The notes under the pieces are model-generated. The model saw nothing but the letters and a program-made list of their open reading frames with translations. It made no database searches and had not been told where the DNA came from. A stretch of 53,902 nt of DNA from Nitrospirota bacterium (GTDB lineage Bacteria; Nitrospirota; Thermodesulfovibrionia; Thermodesulfovibrionales; UBA6898): contig JAJXTV010000025.1 of the NCBI GenBank assembly GCA_021783515.1, positions 1 through 53,902 on the forward strand, given 5' to 3'. The first letter of the stretch is position 1. Every line of letters begins with the position of its first letter. Below are positions 44,342-46,960 of this stretch, in pieces. Made by a program: the position numbers and the translations under genes.

Positions 44342-44428
44342 GGCCTCGCAGTACCTCCTCTTTCGGGGCTACGAAGCCATTATACCACCCCGGACGCGGA
44401 GCGCGGAAAGGAGGGGGGAGGCAATATC

Positions 44429-46150
44429 TTGAAAAGGCCGTTGACAGTCAGTAAACTAACTGAGATGGGGAATCAGGACAAAAGACATTTCAGGAGATAC
44501 CGGAAAGGGCTGGATTATTCCGTGAAGCTCAATGACGCGTATTATCGGGCGACGCTTACCGATTATTCCGTTGAGGGACTCGGCCTGCTGATCGGGCAGC
44601 CGCCGAAGATCGCCGAGGGCGATGTGGTGGACCTGGCGATAGAGGAGCTGGCGATCAGAGGGGCGGGAAAGGTGGTCTGGAGCTACAGCGGGCCGTCGGG
44701 TCTGAGAGTAGGGCTGAAGAATATGGGACCGATTGGCGGGCGTGTGAGAGACTATCGCTTTGCGGACATACTGCTCGGCATGCAGAGTGCCAAAAGGACC
44801 GGCATCCTCACGGTCGAGAATGCCGGCGCCGTCAAGAAGATCTACATTCGCGGCGGCGAGATGGTGTTTTCTTCCTCCAACGACAAAAGAGACAGTCTCA
44901 CCGAGCTGCTCGTCCGGGAAGGCAAATTGACGGAGGCGCGTCGCGATGCCGTCGTCGCGGAAATGCAGAAGACGGGCCGAAAAGAGGGGGCTCTGCTTAT
45001 CGGGATGGGCTGCTGCAGCCCGGCCGACCTGGTGCCGCTGGTGAAGCGCCAGATAGAAGAGGTCATCCTCGGCCTCTTTAATCTCGGCGACGGCAGTTTT
45101 TCGGTTGAGGAGACTGTGCTTTCGGACCGGGAGATCGTATCGCTCAAATTGTCGACCATCGATTTGATATACTCCGGGGCAAAAAGGGTCGGCGATGTCC
45201 GGCAGATTGCGGAGTTGGTGCCGTCGATCGACGACGTCCCGGTTCCCTTGCCCGATGAGGGCGCGCTGGCGCGGGGGGTGAGACTGGATGATGCGGGCAA
45301 CACCGTGCTGGCGTGCGTCGACGGAGTGACTTCGGTCGCCGGGATTATAGACCGGACCGGCCTGGACAGGTTCGAGGTCCTCAGGACGCTGTTTGCCCTG
45401 ATCACCATACGTCTCGTCGAGATGCAGGAGATTATCTTCGCCGCCGCAGAAGAGATTGCTGCGCCGGAAGATGAAGCCGCGGTGCCGGGTGTCGACCCGG
45501 AGGAGGTGCGGACCATCGAGGAGATGCACGGGAAATACGTGGACCTCGGTTATTACGGCGTCCTTGGCGTGAAGCCCGTTGCCTCTCTCCAGGAAATAAA
45601 GAGCGCATACTACCGCGCGGCTAAAAAGTACCATCCGGATATCCATTTCAGTCGTGCCGACGATTTGCTGAAGAACAAGCTGAGCGATATCTTCTCATAT
45701 GTGTACGAGGCCTATGCCACGCTTGCAGACCCGGAGAAAAGACGGGAGTACGACAAGTCCGTCAGCTTCAGGCCGGCGAGAGTCGCCTCGGGAGGGGAGA
45801 AGGCGAAGATGAAGTTCGAGGAGGGGAGAGCCGCATTTAAAAAGGAGCAATACGGCGAAGCGGAGCTTCTTTTCGGGCAGGCGACCTATTTCGATTCGTC
45901 GGTTGCCGTATACCACTTTTATTACGGGTTGTCTCTTTTCCGCCAGGCGAAGGTCAAGGCGGCGGAAAAGGCGATTGCGCGAGCAGTGAAGCTCGACCCC
46001 TTTAATGCAGATTATCTGGCGGAACTCGGGTTTGTCTTCACCACGCTGGGCTTTCCGGCAAGGGCGAAGGGCCTTTTCGAAAAGGCCCTCAAGATATCCC
46101 CCCGCCATGAGCGGGCGCGCGCAGGCGCGGCAGGCCCGAAGGCGCGTTAG
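44429..46150 (+). CDS. PilZ-DUF4388(PATAN)-J-domain-TPR fusion protein
   Basis: I choose the TTG start at 44429 because a strong GGAGG lies 7 nt upstream; the next ATG (44465) has no site. The 573-residue protein has a PilZ domain (about 18-105; RRYRKGLDY and TDYSVEGLGLLI), a DUF4388/PATAN domain (about 108-220; DILLGMQSAKRTGILTVENA, KIYIRGGEMVFSSSN), a linker domain (about 220-350), a J domain (about 375-445; YYGVLGV, AYYRAAKKYHPDIHF with the HPD triad) and TPR-like repeats (about 460-560). It could link c-di-GMP to Hsp70 recruitment; this is inference. A GC hairpin (46169-46189) lies just downstream. Confidence 0.82.
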   Translation: MKRPLTVSKLTEMGNQDKRHFRRYRKGLDYSVKLNDAYYRATLTDYSVEGLGLLIGQPPKIAEGDVVDLAIEELAIRGAGKVVWSYSGPSGLRVGLKNMGPIGGRVRDYRFADILLGMQSAKRTGILTVENAGAVKKIYIRGGEMVFSSSNDKRDSLTELLVREGKLTEARRDAVVAEMQKTGRKEGALLIGMGCCSPADLVPLVKRQIEEVILGLFNLGDGSFSVEETVLSDREIVSLKLSTIDLIYSGAKRVGDVRQIAELVPSIDDVPVPLPDEGALARGVRLDDAGNTVLACVDGVTSVAGIIDRTGLDRFEVLRTLFALITIRLVEMQEIIFAAAEEIAAPEDEAAVPGVDPEEVRTIEEMHGKYVDLGYYGVLGVKPVASLQEIKSAYYRAAKKYHPDIHFSRADDLLKNKLSDIFSYVYEAYATLADPEKRREYDKSVSFRPARVASGGEKAKMKFEEGRAAFKKEQYGEAELLFGQATYFDSSVAVYHFYYGLSLFRQAKVKAAEKAIARAVKLDPFNADYLAELGFVFTTLGFPARAKGLFEKALKISPRHERARAGAAGPKAR

Positions 46151-46197
46151 CGAAAGACGGGATCGCCTCGGGGGCGCGGTGCGCCCCCGGAGCCGTA

Positions 46198-46857
46198 CTA
46201 CTTCTTCTTGGCCTTTGCCTTTGTCGCTGCGGGCGACTTTTTGGGCGATTTGGCAGCCGGCCGCGCAGCCTTTTTCGGGGCGCTCTTCGTTGCTGATGCC
46301 GCCTTCGTCGTCATCTTTTTCGAAGGGGCCTTTGCCTTCTCCGGACCGGCAGCCTTCTTTGCCGCAGGCGCCTTCGGAGATGTTTTTTTCACGGCAGGCC
46401 TTGTTTTCGGCGCGGGCTGCTCCTTTTTTCCCGCGGCCGGAGGGGCGGTCACGGCCGGGACCTTCGCCTCGGGCCGTATCGCGACCGGCCCGTCTTTTTT
46501 CATTTCGACCGCATGCATCTTCCTCTCGACGAGGCTTCTTTCTTCCATCACGCCGAGGATGTCTTCTTCCCTTACCAGCGTGATCGTCTGCCCGCCGAGC
46601 TCGACCTCTCTTTCGGCGTATTTCTGATAGAGCACATGCTGGCCCGGTTTGAGGACCGTCGGGACGAACTTCTTTTTCTTTTCCTTTTCCTTCTCTTTTC
46701 CCTTCTCCGGCACGAGTTTCCCCGGCCCGATTGCAAGAATTGTCCCTTCGAGCGGTTTTTCCTTGGCGACCTCCGGGATGATGATGCCGCTGGCGGTCAT
46801 CTCCGGCGCTTCGGATTTCCTGATCACTGCCCAGTCCTGGAGCGGTTTTATATGCAT
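46198..46857 (-). CDS. GroES-like co-chaperonin with histone-H1-like tail
   Basis: The start at 46857 has a GGAGG site 9 nt upstream. Residues 1-105 form a GroES/Cpn10 domain: MHIKPLQDWAVIRKSEAPEM, the mobile loop MTASGIIIPEVAKEKP, and VLYQKYAEREVELGGQTITL plus VREEDILGVME. Inside it is a Lys/Glu insertion (PEKGKEKEKEKKKK) at the roof-loop region. Residues about 130-219 are a low-complexity Lys/Ala/Pro tail with AAKK and KKTSPKAP-type repeats, like histone H1 or AlgP tails. No groEL is adjacent. The tail suggests nucleic-acid or polyanion binding. Standard GroES is about 95 residues, so this is more than twice the usual length. Confidence 0.83.
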   Translation of the reverse strand: MHIKPLQDWAVIRKSEAPEMTASGIIIPEVAKEKPLEGTILAIGPGKLVPEKGKEKEKEKKKKFVPTVLKPGQHVLYQKYAEREVELGGQTITLVREEDILGVMEERSLVERKMHAVEMKKDGPVAIRPEAKVPAVTAPPAAGKKEQPAPKTRPAVKKTSPKAPAAKKAAGPEKAKAPSKKMTTKAASATKSAPKKAARPAAKSPKKSPAATKAKAKKK

Positions 46858-46960
46858 ACTCAGCAACCTCCTGTAGAAAAGGTGTAATGTATGATTTCCG
46901 TAATTATACCCCATGGAAAGACCTCCTTGGAAGGGCTTTTCGGAGGCTCACCGCTCTTCC

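Follow-up and report, generated by a model that had tools for sequence, protein, structure and literature searches.

The bacterial GroEL cage is usually taken as freely diffusing and as having one lid. In Bdellovibrio a second groES gene, encoding GroES2 (Bd3349), is present beside groES1-groEL; it is differently regulated and its product has been proposed to act as an alternative lid of GroEL (PMC3464611). GroES2 is 117 aa long after re-annotation and no Lys-rich C-terminal tail has been described for it (PMC3464611); in the old annotation a repetitive part preceded the core. HspA of Helicobacter pylori is a GroES with a compositionally biased C-terminal extension, which is functional in that protein (PMC5116745). 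The extension is His-rich and binds nickel. In chloroplasts several co-chaperonin types, Cpn10 and Cpn20, are present per compartment and can form working hetero-oligomers (PMC4242682); in Cpn20 the Cpn10 domain is duplicated in tandem. Outside the GroES proteins, Lys/Ala/Pro-rich C-termini that vary in length and are disordered are found in AlgP and PhaF of Pseudomonas and in Hc2 of Chlamydia (PMC9239181, PMC3574117, PMC2848022). DNA binding is known for fragments of AlgP and for KPAA peptides, and PhaF is regarded as a tether between granules and the chromosome (PMC9239181).

The gene described here is carried on a stretch of 53,902 nucleotides (the window) from a Nitrospirota bacterium of the order Thermodesulfovibrionales. 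All aligned members of its subfamily have Trp at position 9, where canonical GroES has Arg, and the protein is therefore named W9-GroES. Fold, mobile loop and domain boundaries are the same as in canonical GroES/Cpn10 (PF00166). Compared with canonical GroES, W9-GroES has Trp9, an enlarged charged roof loop and, in the window, a long linker and basic tail; its gene lies outside the groESL operon, has no CIRCE operator and falls below every NCBIfam GroES cut-off. It is a GroES by fold and sequence, and non-canonical by operon, regulation and curated models. Like Bdellovibrio GroES2 it is a second GroES for which the role of an alternative lid is proposed, but its tail is C-terminal, unlike the repetitive part of the old GroES2 annotation. 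Like HspA it has a biased C-terminal extension, in this case Lys/Ala/Pro-rich and without His or Cys in its distal part. Such an H1-like tail has not been described for Cpn20. The likeness seen to AlgP, PhaF and Hc2 is one of composition, and the folded parts of those proteins are unrelated to GroES. A sequence-only reading of the window had taken a GroES of this kind to be uncharacterised. This view agrees with the literature, covered in part, in which no Lys-tailed GroES was found, and W9-GroES is a conserved GroES variant, apparently undescribed.

Gene and upstream region

Features of the W9-GroES gene are listed in Table 1. An exact TATAAT was present within 60 bases of the start in 20 of the 32 genes of tailed lineages, against 1.9 in shuffles. 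The CIRCE scan, run over 250 bases ahead of the window's gene, found no operator there. In the same scan, CIRCE with at most 1 mismatch of 18 was present at each of the 33 canonical groES loci whose upstream DNA was readable (two duplicates included), whereas none of the W9 genes scanned carried one, their best sites having 6 to 10 mismatches. The gene is stand-alone, with no groEL near it. When neighbourhoods were clustered, no conserved neighbour or operon partner was found past near relatives; the other recurrent clusters include antisense ORFs over the W9-GroES gene itself.

Table 1. Positions of the W9-GroES gene, its upstream signals and its protein parts in the window.
Feature	Coordinates	Strand	Basis or remark
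Tailed second GroES (W9-GroES), whole ORF with stop	46198..46857	-	ATG at 46857, stop codon 46198-46200; 219 aa; Cpn10 E 5.7e-22
Shine-Dalgarno AGGAGG, 5' of the start	46867..46872	-	sequence
TATAAT, -10-like box, upstream	46903..46908	-	sequence
Cpn10 core, residues 1-104	46546..46857	-	Pfam match 3-103; AlphaFold core, Foldseek matches
Trp9 (Arg in canonical GroES), subfamily hallmark	46831..46833	-	invariant in two W9 alignments; Arg in canonical copies
Mobile loop, residues 17-36, hydrophobic tripeptide III	46750..46809	-	conserved
Charged Lys/Glu roof-loop enlargement, residues 50-63	46669..46710	-	in tailed and tailless members
Linker, residues 105-139, recurrent motif AVEMKKDGPVAI here	46441..46545	-	motif in 20/23 tails of the order, from which it was also derived
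Distal Lys/Ala/Pro H1-like tail, residues 140-219	46201..46440	-	composition; AlphaFold: no regular structure, low pLDDT

The gene with its tail is real. As a finding that would count against its proposal, the earlier reading had named a tail missing in close relatives through a frameshift; both gene-bearing genus mates proved to be tailed. Downstream of the gene of the one tailless family member no frame encodes a tail. Thus a frameshift or fusion artefact as the source of the tail was ruled out, by the tailed genus mates and by the lack of a downstream tail-coding frame.

The convergent neighbour on the plus strand (44342-46150) encodes a protein with PilZ, DUF4388, DnaJ and TPR domains, and its arrangement next to the groES gene is not kept in relatives. 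Between the two convergent genes lies a G+C-rich inverted repeat, GGGGGCGC...GCGCCCCC (46168-46190), which is possibly a shared terminator of both.

Cpn10 core, mobile loop and roof

The Pfam Cpn10 model (PF00166) matched the window protein over residues 3-103 with 78 bits against a curated cut-off of 21.1, while no NCBIfam GroES model reached its cut-off (best 85.6 bits against 96, NF001531). The core was modelled confidently by AlphaFold; past residue 105 the model has no regular structure and low pLDDT. Foldseek gave good matches to Cpn10-type structures only, Cpn10 crystal structures among them (E 1.7e-9). A Cpn10 fold with the roof hairpin is predicted for the protein by the model.

The mobile loop is intact (EMTASGIIIPEVAKEKP), and the hydrophobic GroEL-binding tripeptide (loop SGIIIPEVAKEKP) is kept throughout the W9 subfamily. 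Mean identity to canonical GroES is 58% in the mobile loop and 40% in the barrel, in agreement with the conserved loop of the first reading. Since strong conservation of this loop is general among GroES proteins, it supports retained docking more than a particular partner. The Lys/Glu insertion that had been assigned to the roof-loop region is also confirmed: in the AlphaFold model the stretch sits inside the roof hairpin, flanked by strands 46-50 and 62-66, and it is conserved. Canonical GroES of the window's family (L015, L018, L030, L031, L063, L064 and others) have no roof hairpin (VGSEVKEVKVGNT), and the W9 and canonical lids therefore differ most at the roof. The hairpin is retained in the canonical GroES of families f2, f5 and f11.

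A second GroES subfamily in Nitrospirota

To delimit the subfamily, contigs of 84,980 species were scanned with a pattern that includes Trp9 and one preceding residue. Forty W9 loci (L072-L111), all apparently from Nitrospirota, were obtained; as the pattern demands Trp, the scan samples the subfamily and does not exhaust it. Four matches from Vibrio/Photobacterium, about 30% identical, were set aside. A score-based search, in which Trp was not demanded, was carried out on 296 Nitrospirota genomes. It gave 56 matches of at least 117 bits followed by a gap, the canonical copies reaching at most 106 bits. Trp9 was present in 56 of 56 parsed loci (57 examined), the Trp-bearing ORF being kept where several ORFs of a locus matched. 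In the tree, the W9 sequences form one group with moderate support (92/89); the canonical group has 89/72 and a third type 100/100. Several nearly complete genomes of the window's family lacked the W9-GroES gene in the score-based search.

By these sequence comparisons W9-GroES is a second GroES subfamily, widespread in Nitrospirota, and not a lone oddity. In the searches made here (the Trp-pattern scan and the score search of the phylum) it was met only in Nitrospirota; GroES of other phyla may still carry long tails.

GroEL and GroES complement

In searches with Cpn10 and Cpn60 models, most of 61 genomes had a single full-length GroEL together with one, two or three types of GroES. The types are canonical GroES encoded beside groEL, W9-GroES, and a third, more diverged type. 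In genomes G012 and G031, each a single contig, one GroEL is accompanied by a canonical and a tailed GroES, and the pattern of one GroEL with several GroES is therefore not an assembly effect. The third type (KKNLIVVGDRV...) has a long roof region of its own, is below all NCBIfam GroES cut-offs and was met in many of the order's genomes. In the window's genome it is represented by L055 4766-5179 (G000 C10:4841-5155; KKNLIVVGDRVLLDPDD...).

A second strong and very different Cpn60 was seen only in G053; the remaining double rows are due to split genes or to sub-threshold hits. This second Cpn60_TCP1 match (L067, G053 C18:18523-19989) scored 557 bits, compared with about 264 for the GroEL of the same genome, which points to a bacterial genome with a chaperonin of group II (archaeal-type).

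The window's assembly (G000; 3.16 Mb, 48 contigs, 98.7% complete) yielded neither a Cpn60/GroEL nor a canonical groES in the model searches, while its genus mates have both. As most relatives have groESL, its lack is probably an assembly or binning gap.

Linker, tail and their distribution

A tail of about 90 Lys/Ala/Pro residues had been noted at first. The tail is present, but the extension is longer, about 115 residues, and consists of a linker of about 35 and a distal tail of about 80. The latter has 30% Lys, 29% Ala and 15% Pro, and a composition count found no Cys, His or aromatic residue in it. The whole extension has a net charge of about +25. It is thus a long, Lys/Ala/Pro-rich, disordered and strongly basic C-terminus as in bacterial H1-like tails. 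A metal-binding tail of the HspA type, rich in His/Cys, was ruled out by the lack of Cys and His in the distal part.

Related DNA (1.13 Mb) contains 1,414 distinct ORFs that reach 140 aa; only 26 of these have at least 25% Lys and a net charge of at least +12 in their last 60 residues, and all 26 are W9-GroES; the DNA was taken from around GroES genes, and hence the count is not a whole-genome census. The window tail used as query found only itself in its own genome, low-complexity queries of this type being possibly under-sensitive.

Tails were present in 31 of 56 tree rows: in families f1, f2, f5 and f6 of the window's order, most members of which are tailed, and in f25 of the Nitrospiria. 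They are absent from f7, f26, f28, f29 (including Nitrospira), f32-f34, f36 and f37, and from one f1 member (L040). The enlarged charged roof loop is common to tailed and tailless members and therefore either predates the tail or is independent of it. Three tail changes are needed on the tree, and supported branches require two of them. Read from the sequence tree, the history of the tail is one of two gains with losses, or of one gain with more losses. Linkers differ between the two classes, and we therefore lean to two gains.

Proposed role of W9-GroES

The most probable role of W9-GroES is that of an alternative lid for GroEL, because nearly all related genomes encode a single GroEL and two or three GroES types. 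We infer its docking on GroEL from the mobile loop and the presence of one GroEL. As a tentative reading of the whole protein, we propose that the basic tails of this lid bind nucleic acid and place a sub-population of the chaperonin at the nucleoid or at mRNA/ribosomes. The examples of AlgP and PhaF would make nucleic acid, be it nucleoid, mRNA or ribosome, the likeliest target of the tail.

Seven copies of W9-GroES, alone or mixed with canonical GroES, would form a dome, and the dome would dock on the single GroEL of the cell through the conserved mobile loop. The roof of the resulting cage would carry a ring of Lys/Glu loops, and each subunit would trail a flexible linker and a basic H1-like tail, amounting to roughly +175 per homoheptamer. 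The tails may point outwards from the dome and bind nucleic acid with no sequence specificity. The sub-population of chaperonin would be kept close to particular clients, either at the nucleoid or on mRNA/ribosomes, and expression of this lid would be uncoupled from HrcA/CIRCE heat-shock control. Counted against the tether are the position of the gene away from groEL, an own assembly without groEL and the dispensability of the tail.

Alternative explanations

An unlikely variant retains the alternative GroEL lid and lets the tail and linker motif act on proteins: they would recruit acidic clients or a partner, or tether GroEL particles together, and a special client set would be fed to the cage. 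The linker motif (pattern hydrophobic-x-x-Lys-Lys...Pro-hydrophobic) is conserved more strongly than the distal tail, and this points to a specific partner. It was counted in 20 of the 23 tails of the window's order against 0.25 in shuffles, the motif having been derived from the same related sequences. In one genus cluster most of the tail is made up of repeats of an ALQKK-type motif, followed by a short Lys end, which also fits a protein target. However, the composition of the distal tail is that of H1/AlgP-type nucleic-acid-binding tails, and no partner gene is conserved nearby.

Rather improbable is a tail that is a nearly neutral low-complexity expansion, with the core as the sole working part of the second GroES. 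Low-complexity Lys/Ala/Pro tails can arise easily. In the subfamily tail length ranges from 38 to about 175 residues and many members have no tail; hence the tail is dispensable for core function. Tails also evolve faster than the core. Against it, net charge and composition of the tail persist across tail GC of 0.41 to 0.61. In pairs of near relatives the dN/dS of the tail is about 0.09-0.36 (approximate, as the repeats make the alignment approximate), well below 1, compared with 0.07-0.13 for the core. The recurrence of the linker motif and the lack of such an end in any other sampled ORF also argue against neutrality. The tail appears to be under purifying selection.

Could W9-GroES have left GroEL and cap another ring, for example ClpP, like the chloroplast co-chaperonin subunits in the Chlamydomonas ClpP structure? 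In the PDB its sequence is matched best by CPN23 and CPN20 of 7ekq, titled CrClpP-S2c; with Trp9 and an altered roof it has diverged from canonical GroES, and its gene is neither next to groEL nor controlled through CIRCE. Yet it is in the mobile loop, the element for docking on GroEL, that the protein comes nearest to canonical GroES, and the CPN20/23 match is to generic GroES sequence and gives no evidence for shared ClpP binding. This explanation is quite improbable.

Polyphosphate as the ligand, an idea of the sequence-only reading that would put the chaperonin on polyP granules, with which AlgP with its similar K/A/P tail associates (PMC9239181), is very improbable, because PPK1 was found in 0 of 27 genomes of the window's family (f1; 19 of good quality) and PPK2 was not found in the window's genome.

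Implications

A dedicated GroEL lid of the Nitrospirota might, by its seven H1-like tails, tether cages to the nucleoid or to mRNA/ribosomes, the choice of lid setting the place and clients of one GroEL; in this full form we regard the proposal as doubtful. In lineages with one GroEL and two or three lids, one of which is tailed in H1-like fashion and altered at the roof, the steering of the cage by lid choice to a place or a client set becomes directly testable, and the natural tailless W9 members, such as those of Nitrospira, are controls for the function of the tail.
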